In this document: in pieces, positions 2 through 13,161 of the stretch | Layout: each line of letters begins with the position of its first letter | Numbering within the stretch: position 1 is the stretch's first letter | Virus record (IMG/VR): IMGVR_UViG_3300023175_000198 | Span: 1 to 23,545 of that record | Origin: a virus | DNA length: 23,545 nt | Direction: 5' to 3' (one strand) | Program-made: the position numbers and the translations under genes | The notes under the pieces: generated by a model | Seen by the model: the letters and a program-made list of their open reading frames with translations, nothing else | The model's database searches: none | Told to the model about the DNA's origin: nothing

Positions 2-622
2 TCACATGGCGAAACTGTAAGTTCTGTGTCTAATGCAGGTGCAGTCCACGTTTGGCGAGATTCTAGTGGTAGTGGAACTTACACTTACGACCAAAAGTTA
101 GTAGCGAGCGATCCAGCAACAAATGCAAGATTTGGAAGTTCCCTTGCTTTAGATGGAAATAATTTAATAATAGGTGCAGAAGGTGCCGACACTTATGGTG
201 GCGCATATATCTTTACACAAGGAACAGATGGCAGTTGGACACAAAGAAAGAAAGTAAGTCCATCTGATGGTACAGCGGCAGCCAATAAATTTGGCGGTGA
301 AAACACTGTAGCCATTAGTGGAAAAGATGTTGCAGTAGGTGCATGGAACTATCCTTCAAGTTCTAAAGGAAGAGCATATGTCTTTAATACAACAGGACCA
401 AATGCTGAAGCGAGAGATAAAAAATATCATTCCGAAGAAATTTTACTTATGCATGACGGCACAAATGTTGCTATGACAAGTTATGGTAAGCTTCTATTAG
501 ATTCTGATCTTGGAACATTTGACGGAGTGGTTGCGGATTCTGGAAGTAATATTAATTTAACATTAAGTCCAACTTATCCAGATACAACTGTTAAACTGAA
601 AGCAATAAGAACAGAAGTATAG
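2..622 (+). CDS. FG-GAP-repeat virion structural protein, C-terminal part (5' truncated)
   Basis: The reading frame is open from the first complete codon (position 2) to a stop at 620-622, so the gene starts outside the window and about 206 C-terminal residues are visible. It shows the end of one FG-GAP-like blade (GAVHVW), then two full blades, each with an FG, a DG/GK turn, an 'xxVGA' strand and a closing aromatic strand (GGAYIF, GRAYVF). After the blades, the last ~75 residues form a different beta-rich tail containing HDGTNVAMTSYG and 'LGTFDG'. From memory, that pattern recurs at the C-termini of virion structural proteins of marine T4-like phages. FG-GAP blades usually form beta-propellers with surface-binding roles. 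Its place directly upstream of three adhesin-like genes suggests another fibre or surface protein. Identity as a specific T4 gene is not supported. Confidence 0.75.
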   Translation, partial: SHGETVSSVSNAGAVHVWRDSSGSGTYTYDQKLVASDPATNARFGSSLALDGNNLIIGAEGADTYGGAYIFTQGTDGSWTQRKKVSPSDGTAAANKFGGENTVAISGKDVAVGAWNYPSSSKGRAYVFNTTGPNAEARDKKYHSEEILLMHDGTNVAMTSYGKLLLDSDLGTFDGVVADSGSNINLTLSPTYPDTTVKLKAIRTEV

Positions 623-649: not shown

Positions 650-877
650 ATGGAAAAACAAGACAATTCGAATATGGTCATAATCGACGATAAAGAATAT
701 AAGATTGAAGATTTTAATAAAGAGCAAACTTATCACATAACTCAAATCAGAGATTTACAAGCAAAAGCTGCTGATCTTCGTTTTAAGCTTGATCAGCTTA
801 CAACAGCTGAAAAGGCATTTACGAGTTTACTAGTAAAGTCTTTAACAACAGAAGAAGAGCCTAAAACCGAGGAATAA
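650..877 (+). CDS. Small acidic coiled-coil phage protein (DUF6447-like)
   Basis: A 75-residue protein with an N-terminal beta-hairpin-like segment (VIIDDKEYKIEDF) followed by a predicted amphipathic helix of about 40 residues (ITQIRDLQAKAADLRFKLDQ and on) and an acidic Glu/Thr tail. It has a strong ribosome binding site, AAGGAG at 638-643, seven bases before the ATG. Short proteins with an 'I-DGKEY-EDL' start and a coiled-coil end are frequent between structural genes of marine T4-like phages, and I believe they match DUF6447, though I could not test this. The stop lies 7 bases before the next start, so the two genes are likely cotranscribed. Function is unknown. A fibre chaperone or a small virion component would fit the context, but that is inference. 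Confidence 0.65.
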   Translation: MEKQDNSNMVIIDDKEYKIEDFNKEQTYHITQIRDLQAKAADLRFKLDQLTTAEKAFTSLLVKSLTTEEEPKTEE

Positions 878-884
878 TTAGTTA

Positions 885-3458
885 ATGCCAACTGCAGATA
901 AAAAGAACTTTATTGTTGAAAAAGGAATAGAGCTTGAAGGCGGATTTAAACTTAAGAATGTTACTGCAACGACTCTTATTGATTCAGCTGGAACTACTTC
1001 AGTACTAACCGACTCAAGCAATTCTGCATCAATTATAAGTGCAGCAGGTGGAAATATTGTAAAAGGTTATGATTCAAGTGAACTTCTTCCTCTTTCAAAT
1101 AATACTACAGGTGAACTTAATTATGTAACAGAAACTAATCGTTTATATCTTTGGAACGGAAGCGGTTGGTATAACATTGCCACAGTTAATACTACACCTA
1201 CAATGACAACGACTCCAGATTCAAACTATTCTATGGATTCGGTTGGTGCTTCACTTACAATTACATTAGTAGCCACGGATCCTGAAGGTTTACCAATAAC
1301 CTATTCTGCAACTTCAGATTCATCAAGCACCTTTGTGACTATTAGTCAAGACTCAGGCGTATTTACGATTACGCCATTAACTCAATCACAACTCGATTCA
1401 AATGGTGTCAGTGAAGGTGGAACATTTTCAATAAACTTTAAAGCATCAGATGGTGTTAATATTGTTCCTAACGTAACTAATTTTACTTTAACATTGGCTG
1501 CTGGACCAGTAACAAACAGTAAATATACCTCTAGATTAGTAACAGCAGTAGATACTTCTGATAATAATAATATTGTTGATGCATCATCTAATAGTCGCCT
1601 TATAACGTCATATGATGATACTTCTGCTGGAACTTTCACTCCCTATAGACACGGCGGGTATAGTTGGTATGGATCGGCTAGTGGTGCATATTCAACTGCA
1701 ACTATTGGCACAATAGGTACTAATGAATTTACGATTGAATGTTGGGTGTACTGGCCAACAGTAAGTGGACCGGAAGGTGTTTTTGAAATTAATACTTCAT
1801 TAGCACCTGGCAATCAAACGAACACTATAAGTGTGTTCACTCGTAGTTCAACTTATAGTTACAATTGGGCATTTGCAACTAACGGCACTCAAGTAGATTC
1901 AAGTACTGCTCCAACAGCAAACACTTGGCACCACGTTGCATTAGTGAGAAATTCGAGCAATTTAATAACGCTGTATATTGATGGTACTTCACTAATAACT
2001 CGTACCGATTCAACAAGTATAAGTGCCACCACTTTATCAATAGGAAGATATTATAACACATCGTTCAATGTAAACGGATATATTCATGATTTTAGAATAG
2101 TCAACGGCAGTGCTGTTTACACATCAAACTTCACACCACCAACAGAAAAATTAACAGCAATTACAAATACTGATTTATTAGCTTATCGTAATGGTACATT
2201 CATAGATGAGTCAACAAATTCTCGTTTTATATTTAAAGGATCTGGTGTAGAAAATCTTCCATTTACACCATACGACAATGTACCATATGCTGTTGATGAT
2301 CATGGCGGATCAATCTATTTTGACGGCGATGGCGATTACTTAAAATTAGCAACATCAGGAAATTCATCAGTTACAGATTTTACAATATCTTTTTGGATGT
2401 ATCCAGAAAGTTTTGCTGTTAACAATTCGCTTTATCCGCGTGTATTAGCAATTGGTGACGGATCTTCTGCAAGTACATTTATTCTTTATATAGACACTGG
2501 TTTGCAAATGAAATTATATACCGGTGGTGCTGTAAGAATTGAAAGTGGAGCAGGTACGAGTACGGTTTTTAGGGCAGATAATTGGCAACATATTGTTTTA
2601 AAAAGAAATTCAGGCACTTGGCGATTATTAGTTAATGGTACTTCACAAGGAACATATTCTAATTCAACCGGAATAAATTTTAATTCAGCCAGCATGTTTG
2701 TAGCAAGAAGTACTTCAGCGTCTGGTTATTATACTGGATATATTTCAGATTTTAAAATAGAGTTTAGTTCTGATAGTTCAAGTTCTGTCACAGTTCCAAC
2801 ATCACCATATTCCTCATCAGGAACTGAGTATCATATCAAAGGTACTGAGGCTTCTATTATTGATAAAGCACAAGGAACAAATTTAGTTATTCCGAGTAGT
2901 GGTGTAACTGGTTCGACGACACAAGTTAAATTTACAGATTCAAAATCAATATATTTTTCTGGTGGATCATCTGCAGGAATTGATTTAGGAACAAATCTCT
3001 TTTTAGACGCAACTAACACAGAGTACACATTAGAAATGTGGTATTATCCAACTCAAACAGGAAGTAATTCTTTTTTAATGGGTTCATATATAAGTACTTC
3101 CACTGGAAGATGGTTATTATATCAACAAGGATCAGACAGCAGAATTAGATTTTTTGCAAACTTAAATGGCACGAAAGAAATTTTTACTTCTGCTGTTAGT
3201 GCGAACACCTGGTATCACGTGGCACTTGTTAGAAAATCAAATGGATATATGTCAATTTTTCTCAATGGAACTGAAACAGAATTAACAACCGATGTAAGTG
3301 GATATGCTACAGTATTAGATAGACCAGTATTATTAGGCAGTGGCGATACATTTAGCTCAAGCGGCTGTCAAGCTTATATACAAGATGTTAGAATCACGAA
3401 AGGATTAGCAAGATATACTTCAAGTTTTACACCTCCTAGTGCATCACTAGATGGATAA
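885..3458 (+). CDS. Large adhesin-like structural protein with three LamG/concanavalin-like domains
   Basis: An 857-residue protein with a modular layout. Residues 1-100 share a cassette with the next two genes (start MPTADKKNFIVEKGIELEGG; later ETNRLYLWNGSGWYNIA). Residues ~102-208 are a cadherin/Ig-like domain (ATDPEGLPITYSA ... FKASDGVN). Three LamG-like jelly rolls then follow at ~212-425, ~432-637 and ~648-857. Each has the hallmark strands 'FTIECWVYWP', 'FTISFWMYP' or 'YTLEMWYYP', a 'WHHVALVR' / 'WQHIVLKR' / 'WYHVALVR' strand, 'LYIDGT'-type hairpins and, in the first and third, a closing 'FTPP'. LamG folds commonly bind carbohydrate. No signal peptide or membrane segment is visible. The start is supported by GAGGA at 869-873, inside the end of the preceding gene. 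It is probably a virion surface or tail-fibre protein; the exact location on the particle is inferred. Confidence 0.8.
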   Translation: MPTADKKNFIVEKGIELEGGFKLKNVTATTLIDSAGTTSVLTDSSNSASIISAAGGNIVKGYDSSELLPLSNNTTGELNYVTETNRLYLWNGSGWYNIATVNTTPTMTTTPDSNYSMDSVGASLTITLVATDPEGLPITYSATSDSSSTFVTISQDSGVFTITPLTQSQLDSNGVSEGGTFSINFKASDGVNIVPNVTNFTLTLAAGPVTNSKYTSRLVTAVDTSDNNNIVDASSNSRLITSYDDTSAGTFTPYRHGGYSWYGSASGAYSTATIGTIGTNEFTIECWVYWPTVSGPEGVFEINTSLAPGNQTNTISVFTRSSTYSYNWAFATNGTQVDSSTAPTANTWHHVALVRNSSNLITLYIDGTSLITRTDSTSISATTLSIGRYYNTSFNVNGYIHDFRIVNGSAVYTSNFTPPTEKLTAITNTDLLAYRNGTFIDESTNSRFIFKGSGVENLPFTPYDNVPYAVDDHGGSIYFDGDGDYLKLATSGNSSVTDFTISFWMYPESFAVNNSLYPRVLAIGDGSSASTFILYIDTGLQMKLYTGGAVRIESGAGTSTVFRADNWQHIVLKRNSGTWRLLVNGTSQGTYSNSTGINFNSASMFVARSTSASGYYTGYISDFKIEFSSDSSSSVTVPTSPYSSSGTEYHIKGTEASIIDKAQGTNLVIPSSGVTGSTTQVKFTDSKSIYFSGGSSAGIDLGTNLFLDATNTEYTLEMWYYPTQTGSNSFLMGSYISTSTGRWLLYQQGSDSRIRFFANLNGTKEIFTSAVSANTWYHVALVRKSNGYMSIFLNGTETELTTDVSGYATVLDRPVLLGSGDTFSSSGCQAYIQDVRITKGLARYTSSFTPPSASLDG
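1521..3455 (+). repeat. Three tandem LamG-like domain repeats inside the adhesin gene
   Basis: Coding repeat of about 200 residues per unit, recognised by a recurring Trp-centred strand (ECWVYW, SFWMYP, EMWYYP), about 60-70 residues later 'W-H/Q/Y-H-V/I', and 'IHDFRIVNG', 'ISDFKIEF' or 'IQDVRITKG' near the end. The units are clearly diverged in protein sequence, so this is an old duplication and not a recent one. Confidence 0.7.
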
Positions 3459-3461
3459 ATA
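3454..3461 (+). promoter_or_regulatory. Possible T4-type late promoter (one mismatch)
   Basis: GATAAATA overlaps the stop codon of the upstream adhesin gene and is followed by GTA, as are the perfect boxes at 10286 and 17493 (TATAAATAGTA). It lies 27 bases before the ATG of the next gene. The mismatch at the first base lowers confidence. Confidence 0.4.
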
Positions 3462-3488
3462 GTAGGATTAATAAGGATTTAAAAATTA

Positions 3489-6482
3489 ATGCCAACTGCT
3501 CTTAAGAAAAATTTTATATTAAGTAACGGATTAGAAGTTGAACAATCAATTAAGATTGGTGATCAAACATTCACATCTTTATTAGATTCTTCTGCCATTG
3601 TTAGTGTAGCTTCAGAATCTTCTACTGCAAAAACTATTAGTAAAACTGGTGGTTTTCTGTGTAAAAGTTATGATTCAGCGGATCTTCTTCCCGGAAGTGG
3701 TAATGACTCTGGTGAATTTGGGTTTGTATCATCAACAAATCGCTTATATATCTGGAACGGTTCTGGTTGGTATAACATTGCCTTGATTAACACCACACCA
3801 ACTTTATCAACTACGCCGGATTCAAACTATTCTATGGACTCAGTCGGTGCTTCTTTATCTATTACAATTTTAGCTACTGATCCAGAAGAAGTACCAATAA
3901 CATATTCTCATGTAGCATCAGATTCTGCAGCAGATCTTGTATCAATTACTCAAGACTCTTCAGTGTTTACTGTGACTCCATTAACTCAAGATCAACTTGA
4001 TTCTAATGGCTATAGTTCTGGTGGAACCTTTACTATCACATTTAGAGCGTCAGACGGAGTTAATATTGCTCCAGCAGTAAGTAGTTTTACTTTGACTCTT
4101 TCTTTAGGATATGATTGGACTAAAGGATTTCAGCAATCAATAATAACCCCATCAACAAGAACTAGTGGTGCTGAGTTTGGAACTAGTGTTTCTCTTTCAG
4201 AAGATGGTAGTTATGCAGCAGTTGGTTCTGAAAATTTAAGTAGTAGTGCAGGTGGTGTTTTTATATTTACAAGATCAGGTTCTACATGGACGCAGCAAGC
4301 TAGTTTAACAGCTTCTGACGCAGCGTCAGCTGATAAATTTGGTAGTGATGTCTCTTTAAATAAAGATGCAACAGAGTTAGTAGTAGGTGCTCAAGGTGAA
4401 GGTGGAACTGGTCGAGGCTCTATTTACATATTTACAAGATCAGGTTCTACATGGACACAGCAACAAAAAATAACGCCAGGCGATATTAGTGCTAATGATG
4501 CGTTTGGAGCTAAAGTAGAGATTAATTACAATGGAGATACTATTGCAGTATCTTCGCATGGAGATGATGACACTCAATCGGATTCAGGTGCTGTTTATAT
4601 ATACACAAAATCTGGTGGTACTTGGTCACAGCAAGCTAAAATTAAAGCTGATACACCAGTTAATAGTCAACGAATGTCACAAGATGCTATAGATCTCTCT
4701 GATGATGGAAATACATTAATAGCTGGTGCTTACCGCGATAGCACCAATCTCGGAAAAACATATATATTTACAAGATCTGGATCCACATGGTCAGAACAAG
4801 CTGCATTAACATCTAGTGATGCAACTGCTAGTCAAAGATTTGGTCATTCAGTTGGTATATCTGGTGATGGTAATACTGCAGCAATAGGTGCTTTTTTTGA
4901 TACTAGTGAAAAAGGGGCTTTCTATATATTCACGAGATCGGGTTCTACGTGGACACAACAAGTTAAAATAGCTGGACCTAATACAGTAGCTGGAGTAAGT
5001 GGTCAATCGGTTAATGAGAAATTTGGCACTGGAGTTCGTATGTCTGGAGATGGAGGCACTGTTATAGTTTCAGCACCTGAGGCTGATAAAGTAAATGTCC
5101 AGATAGGTGCTTTATATGTTTATACTGGATCTGGATCATCTTGGACTCAAGCTATAAAATTATTTAGATCTACACATGAGGCTACTGCTAATAGTTATGC
5201 TGCTTATAATACAGATATATCTCATGACGGTAATATAATTTTACTTGGAGCCAATGGTGAAGATGATGGTGGAAATTCAAATACTGGTGCAGCTTATGCG
5301 TTTGCAGCACCTGTAGCGTCAACTCCAGATTGGACAGCTGCAGCTCAAGAAGCTCAGCTATCACCATCATATACGCTGGCTAACTATCAAAATTTTGGAT
5401 ATAGTGTTGATATCAAAGGCGATAGGGCTTTAGTTGGAGCACAAGGTGTTGATAGTAATGCAGGTAAAGTGCTTTATTTTACAAGAGCTTACGAAGGATC
5501 AGCATGGACTTTACAACAAACATTTACAGGAAGTAATACTGAGGGTGGTGATTTTTTTGGTACTGATGTAGCAATGGATGAAAATGGAACTACGTGCGTT
5601 GTTGGTGCACCAGCAGAAGACACTGGCGCAACTCAAGCTGGCATGATTTATGTTTTTACTCTAAGTGGAAATACATGGACTCAAACAGCACAACTACAAA
5701 CAAGCGACACTAGAGCTAACTATGATAGCTTTGGCCAATCAGTTTCTATATACAATGGTACGATTGCTGCTAGTGCTCCTCAAAAAGACGGCCAAGGTGC
5801 TTGTTATGTTTTCACTGGTTCAGGCTCTAGTTGGACGCAACAAGCAAAAGTAGTATCATCAGATATAGCATCTAGTGATCAATTTGGAAGAGCCATATCT
5901 TTATGGGATGACAGTTTATTAGTCGGTGCTTATTACGAAGATCCTGGTAATGTTAATCTTGCAGGATCTGCATACGTGTTTACAAGATCTGGCTCATCGT
6001 GGTCACAACAAGCCAAATTAACAGCTTCTGACGCTGCAGCTAGTGATGTCTTTGGATCAGAAGTGTGTTTAGTGGGAGACACTGCTATAGTAGGTGCTTA
6101 TAATAATGACGATGATGGAACAAATTCAGGATCAGCTTATGTTTATGCAAGATCTGGCTCATCGTGGTCACAACAACAAAAGTTGACAGCTTCTGACGCA
6201 GCGGCCGGTGATCAATTTGGCGTTGCAGTTGCAATTAATAAAACAGACGAAGATGTTGTAGTAGTAGGAGCTCAAAGTAATGATGGTGGTAAAGCATACA
6301 CATTTACAAGATCTGGATCAACATGGACTCAACAGCAAGTATTTACAAGATCAGATGTTGCATCAACAGATGGATTTGGAAATGCAATTGTAGTAGATAA
6401 TTCTTCAATTATTATAGGTGATTATCAAGGTGACGAGGGTAGTTATACTAGCTCTGGAGCAGCGTTTGTATTTAAAGCATAA
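3489..6482 (+). CDS. Large adhesin-like structural protein with two seven-unit FG-GAP propellers
   Basis: A 997-residue paralogue of the preceding gene. Residues 1-100 are the shared N-terminal cassette (STNRLYIWNGSGWYNIA) and ~101-206 the cadherin/Ig-like domain. From Y208 onward the protein is FG-GAP-like blades: W-x-QQ, then FG, then a DG turn, an 'xxVGA' strand, and a closing strand such as VYIF or AYVF followed by TRSGSTW. I count seven closing strands between 208 and ~611 and seven more from ~612 to 997. The linker PVASTPDW marks the join. That is the number expected for two closed seven-bladed beta-propellers of integrin-alpha type. Acidic loops such as GDDDTQSDSG could bind calcium. 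RBS AAGGA is at 3473-3477. Most likely a tail-fibre or surface adhesin; the receptor is unknown. Confidence 0.8.
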   Translation: MPTALKKNFILSNGLEVEQSIKIGDQTFTSLLDSSAIVSVASESSTAKTISKTGGFLCKSYDSADLLPGSGNDSGEFGFVSSTNRLYIWNGSGWYNIALINTTPTLSTTPDSNYSMDSVGASLSITILATDPEEVPITYSHVASDSAADLVSITQDSSVFTVTPLTQDQLDSNGYSSGGTFTITFRASDGVNIAPAVSSFTLTLSLGYDWTKGFQQSIITPSTRTSGAEFGTSVSLSEDGSYAAVGSENLSSSAGGVFIFTRSGSTWTQQASLTASDAASADKFGSDVSLNKDATELVVGAQGEGGTGRGSIYIFTRSGSTWTQQQKITPGDISANDAFGAKVEINYNGDTIAVSSHGDDDTQSDSGAVYIYTKSGGTWSQQAKIKADTPVNSQRMSQDAIDLSDDGNTLIAGAYRDSTNLGKTYIFTRSGSTWSEQAALTSSDATASQRFGHSVGISGDGNTAAIGAFFDTSEKGAFYIFTRSGSTWTQQVKIAGPNTVAGVSGQSVNEKFGTGVRMSGDGGTVIVSAPEADKVNVQIGALYVYTGSGSSWTQAIKLFRSTHEATANSYAAYNTDISHDGNIILLGANGEDDGGNSNTGAAYAFAAPVASTPDWTAAAQEAQLSPSYTLANYQNFGYSVDIKGDRALVGAQGVDSNAGKVLYFTRAYEGSAWTLQQTFTGSNTEGGDFFGTDVAMDENGTTCVVGAPAEDTGATQAGMIYVFTLSGNTWTQTAQLQTSDTRANYDSFGQSVSIYNGTIAASAPQKDGQGACYVFTGSGSSWTQQAKVVSSDIASSDQFGRAISLWDDSLLVGAYYEDPGNVNLAGSAYVFTRSGSSWSQQAKLTASDAAASDVFGSEVCLVGDTAIVGAYNNDDDGTNSGSAYVYARSGSSWSQQQKLTASDAAAGDQFGVAVAINKTDEDVVVVGAQSNDGGKAYTFTRSGSTWTQQQVFTRSDVASTDGFGNAIVVDNSSIIIGDYQGDEGSYTSSGAAFVFKA
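4110..5321 (+). repeat. FG-GAP array, first set of seven units
   Basis: Seven coding units of about 55-60 residues, ending in VFIF, IYIF, VYIY, TYIF, FYIF, LYVY and AYAF. Most joins between units read TRSGSTW. DNA identity between units is patchy but locally exact: 29 bases at 4263-4291 recur at 4428-4456. Confidence 0.75.
5322..6479 (+). repeat. FG-GAP array, second set of seven units
   Basis: Seven further coding units, ending in VLYF, IYVF, CYVF, AYVF, AYVY, AYTF and AFVF. The last unit reaches the C-terminus. A 28-base stretch at 5983-6010 recurs exactly at 6148-6175, at equivalent positions of neighbouring blades. Confidence 0.75.
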
Positions 6483-6490
6483 TGAAATTA

Positions 6491-6498
6491 TATAAATA
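6491..6498 (+). promoter_or_regulatory. T4-type late promoter
   Basis: A perfect TATAAATA box nine bases after the stop of the upstream adhesin gene and 32 bases before the next ATG. By T4 spacing, transcription would start near 6504 and give a leader of about 27 bases. The sigma factor gp55 and its coactivators would be needed and are not in this window. Confidence 0.65.
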
Positions 6499-6530
6499 AG
6501 AGAATAAACATAAACAATTAGAGATAGTTA

Positions 6531-9500
6531 ATGTCAACCGCAATTAAAACAAAATTTAATGTTGATAAAATAGAAACTTCAGAAAGTCTTAAGCTTGGTG
6601 GCACAACCGCAACAAGTCTTATTGATTCTAGCACCGTTACATCTATAGGTACTTCTTCTTCAGTAGCTCTCTCTATAGTTCAAAATGCTGGAAACCCATC
6701 AGCAAAGATATACGATTCTGCAGAGCTTTTGCCAGGAAGTGCTGATTCTGGTTCAATGGCATTAGTAACAGAAACTAATAGATTATACATTTGGAATGGA
6801 ACTGGTTGGTACAATATTGCTTTAGTTAATACTTCTCCAACGTTAAGTACTACTCCTGATTCTAATTATACAATGGATTCAGTTGGAGCGTCATTAACAG
6901 TTACTATGGTAGCATCAGATCCAGAAGAATTGCCAATAACGTATTCATATCTTTCAGATTCAGCATCTAACTTTGTATCAATTACTCAAGACTCAGGTGT
7001 ATTTACTATTTCATCATTAACTCAAGCTCAACTCGATTCCAACGGAGTCAGTTCTGGTGGTACATTTAGTATTACATTTAGAGCAACAGATGGCGTTAAT
7101 ATAGCGCCAGCGGTAAGTAGTTTCACATTAACTCTTGCTGTAACATATGATTGGTCAACAACATCTCAAGCTAATAAGATAACTGCATCTGATGCTGCTA
7201 ATAATGATTTCTTTGGTAACGTTGTTGACATAGATGGTGATTACGCTGTAGTAGGAGCTCGAGGTAATAAGGCTGTTTACATTTACAAAGCATCAGATCT
7301 TAGTTGGGCTTATGGACAACAACAAGCTAATTTTCAAGGTGCAGATGTTGGTGGTAATAGTTTTTATGGACAGGGTCTAGAAATTTCCAATGATGGAAAC
7401 ACTACTGCAGTCGGAGCTAGAGGTGATTATGCTATCTACGTTCATACTAGATCTGGATCAACATGGTCTCAACAACAGAAAATTACAGTATCCGGACAAT
7501 CGGGTCATATTGGTCGTGTTGTATCTCTTTCCGGCGACGGAGACACAGTTGCTTTTTCTGACGCTATCTATAGCACCAATAATATTGGTAGAGTGTATGT
7601 TTGGACTAGATCTGGGTCAACTTGGTCATCAGAAACAATTATAGAATATGATGATGCAGATGCTGATTTAGATTCAGGTGATAGATTTGGAAGTTCTTTA
7701 GCGTTAACGGATGATGGTAATACATTAGTAATAGGTTGTTTTAAAGAAGATCAGGATGGGAGTAACACAGGAGGTGTTTATGTTTTTACAAGATCAGGTT
7801 CAACGTGGTCTTTTCAACAAAGACTTCAATCTAATCCCGTTATAACCAATTCTGAATTTGGTAATGAAAGACACGGTGTAGGAATTTCTGGAGATGGAAA
7901 TTATATAGTAGTAGGAGCAGGTGGTTCGAATAAATCACACGTATTTAATTTATCTGGAGGTACATGGTCTCAACAAGCAATATTAACACCAAGTGGTGGT
8001 AGCCCTGGAACGAACGCCCCATCTGTTGATATATCACAAAGTGGTGATACGGTAATAGTGGGGGTGCCGCTTTCTGATGGAGAAGCTTCTAATGCTGGTG
8101 CTGCATATGTATTTACGAGATCAGGCTCAACTTGGACTCAAGAAGCAAGATTAAACCATTCAACAGCTGCGTCAAATGATTATTTTGGATGGGACGTAGG
8201 TATATCAAATGATGGAAACACTGCTATTGTTTCAGCTTATGCGGATGACATAAGTTCTAGTACTGATGCCGGTTCAGCATTCGTTTTTACGAGATCTGGT
8301 ACAACTTGGACTCAACAAAAAGAGTTAAACCAAAGTACGGTATACGCTGAAAGTTATTTTGGTTATCAATCAAGAATTTCTGGAGATGCAACAACTGCAA
8401 TAGTAAGCGCAAATGGTTATGATACTTTATCTTCACCGTATGATGTTGGTATGGTGTACATATACGAGCAGGCACGCCAATGGACAGAACAAACAAAGAT
8501 ACAAGAAACAACATTCGGATCCAATTTCGGTCATTCTGTATCAATATCTGGTGACACAGTAGTAGTAGGTTCAAACAATACAGATGTTAATAGTCCAGAT
8601 GGAACAAAGTCTTATGTATATACGAGAGCTAGTTACAACTTAACGAATGCATCATACGCTAGTAAAACTTATTCATTTGCTTCTGTAGATAATGGACCTA
8701 CTGGATTTGCATTTAACAGTGATGGAACTAAATTATTTTTTGTTGGTTGGCAACAAACACTCATCAACAGTACTACTGGTGGTTGTTATCAGTATAGTTT
8801 ATCTACAGCTTACGACGTTTCGACTGCAACTTACGATAACGTTTCTTTAGATTTAAGTAGCCAAATGACACAACCTATGGGAATGAATTTTAGTTCAGAT
8901 GGAACTAAATTGTTTGTTCTCGATAATCAAGCAAGTGTTAATGGAGATGTTGTATTTCAATATAATTTGTCGACAGCATTTGATTTAAGCACAGCATCGT
9001 ATAGTAATAATAGTTTAGATGTTAGTTCGTACGAGACAATAGCATCCGGAATAGATTTTAAACCCGATGGAACAAAAATGTTTGTAGTGGGAGAGCAAAC
9101 AGATACTATCCGCGCTTGGAATCTTTCAAGTGCTTGGGATCTTTCAACTGCATCGTATGCTAGTGAAACTTATAGTGTTTCATCACAAGATGGTCTTCCA
9201 ACTGGATTCACATTTAACAGTACTGGAACTAAGATGTACTTCGTTGGTCGTACAAATCATGATATATATCAATATAGCTTATCTACTGCATGGGATGTTT
9301 CAACTGCATCTTATGATAGTATTAGTTTAGATGTTAGTAGTCAAGAAGGAGATCAACCGCGTCAGATTAGATTTAATTCAGATGGAAGTAAATTGTGGAT
9401 GATAGGCTCTGTTAGTGATTCAATTTTTGAATATAGTGTACCTGAAACGTGGTCTTTACAACAAAAAGTTGATCCGTCTCAAGCTCATCAGGATGATCAG

Positions 9501-10280
9501 TTTGGAAAACAAAGAACGATGAAATTAGATAAGTCTAATAACAATCAATTCATTGCAGGTGCATACAGCGAAGATGAAAGTTATTCTGCAGAAGGTGCTG
9601 TTTATATATTCACAAGATCAGGTTCAACGTGGTCAGAACAGCAAAGAATAGTACCTTCAGACGGAGCAATAAACTCTAACTATGGTATAACTGCAGACAT
9701 TTCTGGTGATTACGCAGTGTTTGGCGGTCGACCTGGTAACAATTTTGCAGTCTATGTTTGGACTAGGTCTGGGTCTACATGGAGCCAACAAACAAAGCTC
9801 ACACAACCATCTGGCCACACAAACTCTCAATATGCTTATGATAGTGGTTTATCAATAAATCAAGCTGGAGATACAATAGCAGTTGGTGCATATGGAAACA
9901 GTTCCACTCAAGCAGGAAAGGTGTTTATTTTTACAAGATCAGGTTCGACTTGGACAAATCAAGCTGTAATTCAACCTTCTGATACTGCTAATGGTGACTT
10001 TTTTGGATGGGAGTGTAGGCTAGACAGCACTGGTGATATTTTAGTAGTAGGTGCAAAAACAGCAGGCACTGGCGGAAAGGCATATGTATTCACAAGAGAT
10101 GGTGCAACTTGGACTCAACAAGCAAATATTACAGCTTCAGATGTCGCTAGTAATTGGGAATTTGGTGAAGATGTGGGTATTAGTGGTGGAGACGGTAGAT
10201 TAATAGTTGGAGCTAGACAATATAGCTCAAGTGCAAGTGGAAAAGGTGCAGCTTATATTTTTACAGCATCAGAATCTTAA
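6531..10280 (+). CDS. Giant adhesin-like structural protein: FG-GAP blades with a nested DVSTASY repeat module
   Basis: At 1249 residues this is the largest gene here and the third paralogue. Residues 1-100 are the shared cassette (ETNRLYIWNGTGWYNIA) and ~101-204 the Ig/cadherin-like domain. FG-GAP-like blades 1-9 span ~206-700. Five repeats of a different type follow at ~701-970: 'W/F-D-V/L-STASY', 'SLDVSSQ', 'P-G-FNSDGTKL-FVG' and 'IYQYSLS'. Blades 10-14 (~971-1249) end in VYIF, VYVW, VFIF, AYVF and AYIF. The FG-GAP total is 14, as in the neighbouring gene, so the repeat module looks inserted into the second propeller. The ribosome site is weak (AGAG near 6521), although a late promoter lies just upstream. 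No signal peptide or membrane segment is seen. It is probably a fibre or surface adhesin; a role in receptor binding is inference. Confidence 0.8.
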   Translation: MSTAIKTKFNVDKIETSESLKLGGTTATSLIDSSTVTSIGTSSSVALSIVQNAGNPSAKIYDSAELLPGSADSGSMALVTETNRLYIWNGTGWYNIALVNTSPTLSTTPDSNYTMDSVGASLTVTMVASDPEELPITYSYLSDSASNFVSITQDSGVFTISSLTQAQLDSNGVSSGGTFSITFRATDGVNIAPAVSSFTLTLAVTYDWSTTSQANKITASDAANNDFFGNVVDIDGDYAVVGARGNKAVYIYKASDLSWAYGQQQANFQGADVGGNSFYGQGLEISNDGNTTAVGARGDYAIYVHTRSGSTWSQQQKITVSGQSGHIGRVVSLSGDGDTVAFSDAIYSTNNIGRVYVWTRSGSTWSSETIIEYDDADADLDSGDRFGSSLALTDDGNTLVIGCFKEDQDGSNTGGVYVFTRSGSTWSFQQRLQSNPVITNSEFGNERHGVGISGDGNYIVVGAGGSNKSHVFNLSGGTWSQQAILTPSGGSPGTNAPSVDISQSGDTVIVGVPLSDGEASNAGAAYVFTRSGSTWTQEARLNHSTAASNDYFGWDVGISNDGNTAIVSAYADDISSSTDAGSAFVFTRSGTTWTQQKELNQSTVYAESYFGYQSRISGDATTAIVSANGYDTLSSPYDVGMVYIYEQARQWTEQTKIQETTFGSNFGHSVSISGDTVVVGSNNTDVNSPDGTKSYVYTRASYNLTNASYASKTYSFASVDNGPTGFAFNSDGTKLFFVGWQQTLINSTTGGCYQYSLSTAYDVSTATYDNVSLDLSSQMTQPMGMNFSSDGTKLFVLDNQASVNGDVVFQYNLSTAFDLSTASYSNNSLDVSSYETIASGIDFKPDGTKMFVVGEQTDTIRAWNLSSAWDLSTASYASETYSVSSQDGLPTGFTFNSTGTKMYFVGRTNHDIYQYSLSTAWDVSTASYDSISLDVSSQEGDQPRQIRFNSDGSKLWMIGSVSDSIFEYSVPETWSLQQKVDPSQAHQDDQFGKQRTMKLDKSNNNQFIAGAYSEDESYSAEGAVYIFTRSGSTWSEQQRIVPSDGAINSNYGITADISGDYAVFGGRPGNNFAVYVWTRSGSTWSQQTKLTQPSGHTNSQYAYDSGLSINQAGDTIAVGAYGNSSTQAGKVFIFTRSGSTWTNQAVIQPSDTANGDFFGWECRLDSTGDILVVGAKTAGTGGKAYVFTRDGATWTQQANITASDVASNWEFGEDVGISGGDGRLIVGARQYSSSASGKGAAYIFTASES
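7146..8630 (+). repeat. FG-GAP array, units 1-9 of the giant adhesin
   Basis: Coding units with closing strands VYIY, IYVH, VYVW, VYVF, SHVF, AYVF, AFVF, VYIY and SYVY. Linkers of the TRSGSTW type follow most of them. Units 8 and 9 (from about 8290) are more diverged, with linkers EQARQW and TRASYNL. Confidence 0.7.
8631..9440 (+). repeat. Five-unit DVSTASY/FNSDGTK repeat module
   Basis: Five units of about 50-60 residues with the pattern '(Y/F/W)D(V/L)STASY ... (S/L)DVSSQ ... P-G-F-FNSDGTK(L/M)-FVG ... I-QYSLS'. The 'FNSDGTK' turns and aromatic strand ends are those of WD40-like beta-propeller blades, and similar repeats occur in bacterial surface proteins. The module has none of the FG-GAP signatures that flank it. 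Confidence 0.7.
9441..10277 (+). repeat. FG-GAP array, units 10-14 of the giant adhesin
   Basis: The FG-GAP pattern resumes at 'ETWSLQQKVDPSQ' and runs for five units to the C-terminus (AYIFTASES). Together with the nine upstream units this gives fourteen. Confidence 0.7.
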
Positions 10281-10312: not shown

Positions 10313-11068
10313 ATGGCAACTCCAACATCACGTGCAACTCTTATAGACTATTGCAAAAGACGTCTCGGGGAACCAGTTATCGAAGTTAATGTTGATGAAG
10401 ATCAATTGGAAGACCGAGTAGACGAAGCTTTACAATATTATCGTGAGTTTCATTCAGATGCCACAGTAAGAACATATCTTAAACATCAAGTCACAGCTAC
10501 TGATGTTACTAATGAATATATTACATTAGCTGATAATATTATTTTTGTTTCAAAAATGTTTCCGTTATCGAGTTCATTTAATAATTCTAGAAACTTTTTT
10601 GATATTAAGTATCAAATGATGTTAAACGATATTGCAGATCTTATGAATTTTGCAGGTGATTTAGCTTATTATGAACAAATGCAGCAATACTTATCGTTAT
10701 TAGATATGAAATTAAACGGTACACCACAGGTTCAATTTTCAAGAAGACAAAATAGATTATACATCTTCGGCGATTTTGCTGATGGTGATATTAAAGAAGG
10801 CGATTATATAGTCGCAGAAGTTTATACAGAAGTAAGTGAAACTGATCATACTTCAATATTCAATGACATGTTTATTAAAGAATATACCACTGCATTAATT
10901 AAACAACAGTGGGGTCAAAACTTAATTAAGTTTGAAGGCATGCAATTACCCGGAGGAGTCATTTTAAACGGAAGACAAATATATGATGATGCGACTGGAG
11001 AGATCGCAACTCTTAGAGAGAACTTGAGATTAGAACACGAATTTCCACCAGACTTTTTCGTAGGATGA
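10313..11068 (+). CDS. 13: Neck protein gp13 (head completion)
   Basis: A 251-residue protein matching T4 gp13-type neck proteins, which complete the filled head and, with gp14, form the joining site for the tail. The typical N-terminus is visible: MATPTSRATLIDYCKRRLGE, then the acidic helix 'VNVDEDQLEDRVDEALQYYREFH'. Further recognisable parts are 'ADLMNFAGDLAYYEQMQQYL' and the C-terminal 'IATLRENLRLEHEFPPDFFVG'. T4 gp13 is longer (about 309 residues); marine versions are shorter. RBS AAAGGA is at 10299-10304, nine bases before the ATG. It is the first gene of the morphogenesis block and is separated from gene 14 by a single base. Assignment rests on recognition of the family and on gene order. 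Confidence 0.88.
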   Translation: MATPTSRATLIDYCKRRLGEPVIEVNVDEDQLEDRVDEALQYYREFHSDATVRTYLKHQVTATDVTNEYITLADNIIFVSKMFPLSSSFNNSRNFFDIKYQMMLNDIADLMNFAGDLAYYEQMQQYLSLLDMKLNGTPQVQFSRRQNRLYIFGDFADGDIKEGDYIVAEVYTEVSETDHTSIFNDMFIKEYTTALIKQQWGQNLIKFEGMQLPGGVILNGRQIYDDATGEIATLRENLRLEHEFPPDFFVG

Positions 11069-12744: not shown

Positions 12745-13161
12745 ATGTATGAATATAGAGTAAAGATCGTTAAGATAGTCGATGGTGATACCGTTGATGT
12801 TGATATTGATTTAGGTTTTGGTGTATGGATGCACAAAGAACGCATAAGATTATTTGGTATAGACACGCCCGAATCAAGAACTCGAGATTTAGAAGAAAAG
12901 AAATATGGATTAGCTGCTAAAAAATTTCTGACAGGCATGTTAGATGATGAAGGTGGTATTATACTTAAGACGCATAAAGATAAAACTGGTAAGTTTGGAA
13001 GAATACTAGGTGAATTGTGGAGAACAACGAACTATGCTGATCAGTCTATAAATAATTATATGATTGACAAACACCATGCAGTAATGTACCTAGGACAATC
13101 TAAAGATGATATTCAAGAACAGCATATTAAAAATCGTGAGTTTGTGAACTTAGATGAGTGA
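12745..13161 (+). CDS. Staphylococcal-nuclease-like thermonuclease
   Basis: A 138-residue protein of the SNase (TNase) family, predicted to cut DNA or RNA with calcium. The OB-fold core is clear: 'KIVDGDTVDVDIDLG', then 'ERIRLFGIDTPESR'. R35, D40, T41 and E43 fall at the same residue numbers as the catalytic residues of mature S. aureus nuclease. D13/D15 stand for the metal-binding DGD, and 'DKTGKFGRILGELW' carries R86 in the place of catalytic R87. All key residues therefore seem intact. There is no signal peptide, so it should act in the infected cell. It lies between genes 15 and 16, where T4 has no gene, and its stop overlaps the gene 16 start (ATGAGTGA). A role in packaging-linked cleavage or host nucleic-acid salvage is inference. 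Confidence 0.9.
   Translation: MYEYRVKIVKIVDGDTVDVDIDLGFGVWMHKERIRLFGIDTPESRTRDLEEKKYGLAAKKFLTGMLDDEGGIILKTHKDKTGKFGRILGELWRTTNYADQSINNYMIDKHHAVMYLGQSKDDIQEQHIKNREFVNLDE
13047..13054 (+). promoter_or_regulatory. Possible internal late promoter before the terminase genes
   Basis: A TATAAATA box lies within the nuclease coding sequence, 99 bases upstream of the gene 16 ATG. It encodes Ser-Ile-Asn in frame, and such words arise by chance in AT-rich coding DNA, so this is a weak candidate. Confidence 0.22.

Follow-up and report, generated by a model that had tools for sequence, protein, structure and literature searches.

In a T4-like bacteriophage, the three genes that immediately precede gp13 encode large proteins, designated A, B and C, that share an N-terminal cassette and a cadherin/Ig-like domain and carry different C-terminal payloads. 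In these proteins and their relatives, FG-GAP blades (FG units) mostly total a multiple of seven, while a second repeat (DV) occurs mostly in fives and is inserted among the FG units at one constant turn. The genes probably form a tail-associated bank of modular adhesins, at the variable site for host recognition in this T4-like genome, in which whole rings would be exchanged while docking is kept constant.

An adhesin bank with a common N-terminus

The window, by which we mean the whole stretch of DNA analysed, is 23,545 bases long, and A-C take up 9,396 of these (40%), the share originally estimated. The features of the bank and its borders are as follows.

2..622, +: C-terminal fragment of a fourth FG-GAP protein
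650..877, +: 75-aa ORF (phrog_21153) between the fourth FG-GAP protein and A
885..3458, +: putative adhesin A, 857 aa (cassette, Ig, three LamG domains)
885..1184, +: cassette of A
1185..1502, +: cadherin/Ig-like domain of A
1644..3455, +: three LamG domains of A
1931..2066, +: tract of 18 differences from contig L097, in LamG 1 of A
3489..6482, +: putative adhesin B, 997 aa (cassette, Ig, 14 FG-GAP blades)
3489..3785, +: cassette of B
3786..4106, +: cadherin/Ig-like domain of B
4137..5324, +: FG-GAP blades 1-7 of B
5352..6479, +: FG-GAP blades 8-14 of B
6531..10280, +: putative adhesin C, 1249 aa (cassette, Ig, FG9-DV5-FG5)
6531..6824, +: cassette of C
6825..7142, +: cadherin/Ig-like domain of C
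7173..8312, +: FG-GAP blades 1-7 of C (first predicted propeller)
8319..8639, +: FG-GAP blades 8-9 of C (blades 1-2 of the second)
8637..9452, +: DV5 module of C, five DV repeats between blades 2 and 3 of the second propeller
9462..10277, +: FG-GAP blades 10-14 of C (blades 3-7 of the second)
10313..11068, +: gp13 homologue (head-tail adaptor Ad2), the conserved downstream border

Beyond the bank the gene order is gp13, gp14, gp15, a nuclease-like ORF, gp16 and gp17, continuing to gp23. The nuclease-like ORF (staphylococcal-nuclease-like, PF00565, window 12745-13161, between gp15 and gp16) is 92-93% identical in the related contigs L008 and G002. The major capsid protein is nearest to that of Phage C48C1 (68%), followed by the Melnitz methylophages and HTVC008M (62%). 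The fourth FG-GAP protein is longer in L097, a near-identical contig, where it reaches at least 1290 aa with the architecture FG10-DV5-FG3; the cassette was not seen in the available part of this protein.

Residues 1-206 of the three proteins can be aligned throughout (A/B 63% over 208 aa, E 1e-77; A/C, E 4e-74; C 66% identical to both A and B), which bears out the original prediction of a common cassette and Ig domain. This N-terminus, 63-66% identical among the three, consists of a cassette of ~100 aa and a cadherin/Ig-like domain of ~105 aa. The predicted signature motifs NRLY(L/I)WNG(S/T)GWYNIA and SNY(S/T)MDSVGAS are invariant or nearly so in A, B and C; ITQDS holds for B and C, but reads ISQDS in A. 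A profile of the N-terminal family matched protocadherin-15 in the PDB (E 2e-10). In an AlphaFold model of residues 1-206 of C, made from an 83-row alignment (pLDDT 81), residues 1-55 were poorly modelled, residues 56-98 formed a small beta unit and residues 100-204 a well-modelled Ig fold, and Foldseek matched the model to Ig and protocadherin domains. The cassette had no family match in the libraries searched.

The payloads, originally described as unrelated, do fall into a LamG, an FG-GAP and an FG-GAP/DV type: A matched Laminin_G_3 three times (E 7e-49), B matched FG-GAP_2 (E 3e-142), and C matched FG-GAP_2 (E 1e-90) and carries DV repeats as well. B and C nevertheless hold 14 FG-GAP blades each and are thus mutually related, leaving A as the outlier. 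Searches of Pfam and PHROGs with A-C gave no match to the T4 gp10, gp11, gp12 or wac families. The proteins may be trimeric, and no chaperone or trimerization domain was identified in any of the three.

With a profile of the three N-termini, the cassette and Ig domain were found together at 76 loci in viral contigs, including 18 matches in contig G007 (219,676 bp) and seven in G006 (177 kb). The G007 genes (L086-L091, L017, L030) lie in several clusters, and the 15 complete ones fall into eight payload clusters. The payloads of 127 distinct cassette+Ig proteins were LamG in 71, FG in nine, DV in five, FG with DV in five and of other kinds in 37. Where two N-termini were 65% or more identical (482 pairs), homology of the C-termini was undetectable in 99 pairs and below 60% in 354 more. 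The C-terminal partners thus vary, as had been predicted, and the cassette behaves as a conserved module, common to paralogues and relatives, with interchangeable partners that are varied and exchanged among relatives. The cassette could readily serve to detect recognition genes in T4-like relatives. Other phages (L104-L181) have genes composed nearly entirely of DV5, DV10 or DV15, often adjacent and lacking the cassette. Among bacterial genomes (genome_contigs), none of 145 pattern matches was confirmed with the cassette profile, an absence that is not absolute since it depends on a single peptide pattern. In isolate phages, tblastn with the N-terminus of A and a relative's cassette protein detected no cassette, to which low-complexity filtering may have contributed, and the cassette+Ig pair was absent from the scanned regions of HTVC008M, Melnitz and C48C1.

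Like the published host recognition cluster, the bank occupies a hypervariable stretch of the structural genes, ahead of gp14. Relatives whose gp13 is 94-98% identical have different genes upstream of it and may have no bank next to gp13: L349/L351 have two FG21 proteins with another N-terminus, and L353 and L361 unrelated ORFs. In some phages with a gp13 ~96% identical, other genes replace the whole bank. The FG21 pair of L349 (L349:544-4389 and 4447-8331) has a common hydrophobic N-terminus, MPL(I/L)AALAAGAAAVYGWGRAVA, in place of the cassette; the gp13 downstream of this pair is 96% identical to that of the window.

This location leaves some room for the idea that the proteins decorate the capsid or neck, docking to the head or collar in the manner of Hoc or whiskers and holding glycans or particles rather than serving in the tail receptor-binding apparatus. 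Ig-like domains are common on phage capsids, the bank adjoins the neck genes gp13-gp15, and the label 'head and packaging, virion structural protein' is attached to some PHROGs matched by A. The same PHROG list, however, includes baseplate wedge families, whose matches fall on the LamG part of A; the bank of G002 comes after tail-fibre and baseplate genes; and the published host recognition cluster lies between VrlC and gp14 (PMC7029224). Decoration is consequently unlikely in our estimation, and association of the bank with the tail is preferred.

Repeat numbers and the predicted propellers

Complete ORFs were scanned with profiles of single FG and DV units, seeded from the window, and the units in each were counted. 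DV loci had been fetched with a DV5 query and FG loci later with an FG query, and a few of these loci were copies of close relatives of the window. In these samples, which are neither random nor fully independent of the seeds, DV totals were 5, 10 or 15 in 93 of 104 ORFs (P 2e-52 against 1 in 5), and FG totals were 7, 14 or 21 in 66 of 73 (60 with 7, five with 14 and one with 21). In the six cassette proteins that carry both kinds of unit, the FG units sum to 7 or 14 and all 12 DV blocks contain five repeats. C recurs, identical, in three contigs (window, L097 and L006); the other architectures come from one metagenome contig each.

Window C: FG9-DV5-FG5
L007: FG5-DV5-FG9
L008: FG1-DV5-FG4-DV5-FG9
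G002, second gene (B): FG1-DV5-FG2-DV5-FG4
G002, third gene (C): FG5-DV5-FG4-DV5-FG3-DV5-FG2
L276: FG3-DV5-FG2-DV5-FG8-DV5-FG1 (FG 14, DV three times five)

The rule was already formulated when L276 was fetched via its gp13, and it held there too. Exceptions, outside this set, are a 2508-aa protein of L150 with FG20 and one DV5 and a 4681-aa ORF (L225:1263-15308) with DV59 and FG11, counted as DV38-FG7-DV6-FG4-DV15 and off the 5/7 rule as counted. The insertion turn was constant in all eight proteins examined: a strand ending YVFTRSG is followed by the W-QQ strand (YVFTRSG/STWxQQ). Any viral dataset can serve to check the rule, which is expressed in numbers: 7n FG, 5n DV and one insertion turn. 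The original prediction had missed this repeat grammar, together with the nested insertion and the replacement of the whole bank in some relatives; its observations were otherwise confirmed and its interpretation partly supported.

Alignments of the repeats used contiguous FG-DV5-FG segments, mixes of FG and DV fragments in MAFFT having misplaced rows. Residues 590-1249 of C, comprising the second propeller and the DV5 module, were modelled with AlphaFold. The model (pLDDT 87, pTM 0.80) was nearly all beta and propeller-like. VIA-align gave the headpieces of integrins alphaL, alphaX and alphaM as best matches (Z 34-37), aligning 348-352 of 660 residues over a model span of 2-660 at ~15% identity. 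The number of aligned residues is close to that of the FG residues, suggesting that the FG part forms a seven-blade ring from which DV5 is looped out. Foldseek returned mostly tandem WD40 proteins, with low TM. Taken with the counts, the integrin match argues for rings of seven FG-GAP blades, which would close in the predicted fold. The DV5 module is most likely a five-bladed propeller, presumably closed as well. Pfam gave weak matches to the propeller families Lactonase and SGL and none to vWA. Sequence searches against the PDB found no convincing match for the DV5 module and none for B.

Exchange between relatives

Comparison of the window with G002 showed that gp13-gp20 are 85-97% identical and the payloads of slots B and C only 33-38%. 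Cassettes, in contrast, are most alike slot for slot (A 82%, B 86%, C 79%) as compared with 44-58% across slots, consistent with the original view of an old family. In slot A, LamG is retained in G002, the one relative in which this slot is visible. Constancy of all three C-termini among related phages is thus contradicted for slots B and C, while slot A shows no such change. In a tree of cassettes only, the A cassettes of the window and G002 paired strongly (100/99); the other slot pairs lay in poorly resolved forks. The Ig domains follow no clear slot pattern, as would fit a breakpoint at the cassette-Ig boundary. Because each slot retains a cassette of its own, the three proteins may occupy three docking sites or make up an ordered branched fibre; this retention mildly favours separately docked proteins over spare or silent copies.

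Differences at the level of modules were found among close relatives. Between L007 and L008, identity is 97-99.6% over gp13-gp15 and 99% over the cassette, and FG blades 1-7 correspond (54-88%), whereas blades 8-14 are mostly without counterpart. After blade 1, L008 carries a DV5 that L007 lacks, and after blade 5 the two have different DV5 modules (39-53%); DNA similarity between the two ends near module borders. Genes 2 and 3 of G002 have one DV5 in common (70% protein; 78% DNA over 753 bp), placed after different FG blades. In L276 a C-type cassette (84%) is joined to first-propeller blades 3-6 like those of L007/L008 (61-67%). Close relatives therefore appear, from these alignments, to swap recognition parts in whole pieces, in line with the exchange that the original prediction had allowed for.

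The window and L097 differ at 24 positions in 15,168 bp, 18 of them within the 136-bp LamG 1 tract (binomial P 2e-32). This tract was probably imported, judging from the clustering of the differences; no donor was found among the fetched loci. The differences to L097 in the tract (1931-2066) are mostly synonymous. A crude motif search for the reverse transcriptase of a diversity-generating retroelement, in the forward ORFs of the window, L097, L005 and L085, gave matches inside an FG blade of C.

Apparent swaps could also arise with no exchange at all, by fast divergence of payloads under selection, old divergence and expansion or contraction of tandem repeats within genes. Repeat arrays can slip and expand, and the blades within one protein are 40-50% alike. 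Slippage would, however, yield any number of units, yet totals stay at 7n FG and 5n DV. It is also at odds with one DV5 module occurring in two G002 genes between unlike flanks, with L007 and L008 joining near-identical cassettes and corresponding first-propeller blades, beside an added DV5, to unlike second propellers, with the pairing in L276 of a C-type cassette and another lineage's blades, and with a LamG 1 tract that looks imported. We consider this explanation improbable. Misjoining of repeat-rich genes from different phages during metagenome assembly is very improbable as a source of the mosaics: although every relative with insertions is a metagenome contig, C is identical in three contigs, short-read overlap between DV and FG units is unlikely at only ~40-50% protein identity, and random joins would not leave FG totals at 7 or 14, DV blocks at 5 and every insertion in one turn.

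The modular, tail-associated bank that we favour would work as follows. The cassette (residues 1-100) would dock each protein to the virion tail, an anchor role proposed by analogy, with the cadherin/Ig-like domain as spacer and the C-terminal payload binding glycans or proteins of the cell surface. Two of the three payloads would be integrin-type seven-bladed FG-GAP beta-propellers, and a self-contained DV5 module in the fixed turn would project from the propeller as an extra binding head, in the way that alphaI does in integrins. Since a closed ring of seven FG or five DV units could be gained, lost or substituted with the fold left intact, recombination in the bank would trade entire recognition parts, with docking held constant by the slot-specific cassettes. 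A more specific version, with integrin-like adhesins in which DV5 is a five-bladed receptor-binding head set in a seven-bladed propeller, the closed ring is the unit of recombination and all three proteins are present on each virion, is put forward only tentatively. If it were true, host recognition would evolve by the slotting of whole heads into a fixed turn. The findings as a whole suggest a rule for rebuilding phage recognition proteins unbroken: closed-ring exchange at that turn.

Comparison with known systems

Several elements of the bank are already known, namely host-recognition islands, anchored multi-copy modular receptor-binding proteins (RBPs) and a five-bladed propeller in an RBP. 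Pelagimyophages and cyanomyophages have a hypervariable host recognition cluster with tail-fibre genes between VrlC and gp14 and concanavalin-like domains (PMC7029224). Like the variable slot of the bank, it is a hypervariable island of T4-like marine phages; a shared-cassette bank, FG-GAP propellers and DV5 insertions, all present here, are not reported in the available part of that article. Anchored or branched systems are exemplified by Klebsiella phages with up to 11 RBPs (PMC6872550), which resemble the bank in having a conserved N-terminal structural module, a variable specificity module and several such proteins per phage. The Klebsiella proteins differ in carrying depolymerase domains and T4gp10-like docking, where the bank has LamG and FG-GAP/DV repeats. 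In Staphylococcus phage phi11, the RBP Gp45 has a propeller of five blades in which the GlcNAc receptor is proposed to be held (PMC4901313), akin in architecture to the five-unit DV5 module. The phi11 propeller, however, is an in-line part of a trimer that has a coiled-coil stem, whereas the five-unit modules described here lie inside predicted seven-bladed propellers.

The nested, integrin-like five-in-seven design appears to be new. Neither this design nor the numerical rule or its use as an exchange unit was found in the limited open-access literature searched, and open-access full texts held nothing on point on FG-GAP in bacteriophage tails or integrin-like phage fibres. Its closest counterpart is the integrin alpha subunit (alphaL, alphaX, alphaM), which combines a seven-bladed FG-GAP propeller with an inserted domain, as the second propeller of C is predicted to do. 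The integrin alphaI domain sits between propeller blades 2 and 3 (PMC3192720), and by blade count the DV5 module of C follows FG unit 2 of its second propeller, so that the DV5 loop may be equivalent to the alphaI loop. The two systems differ in three respects. AlphaI is a vWA domain with a MIDAS, whereas the insert in C consists of five DV repeats and is not a vWA domain; integrin blades carry the DxDxDG (Cage) calcium motif, which had no match in the FG blades of B and C; and, unlike integrins, other phage alleles insert after blades 1, 3, 5 or 6. The bank would thus provide, in viruses of bacteria, a case of the integrin alphaI arrangement, with a domain held between the blades of a seven-bladed FG-GAP propeller.
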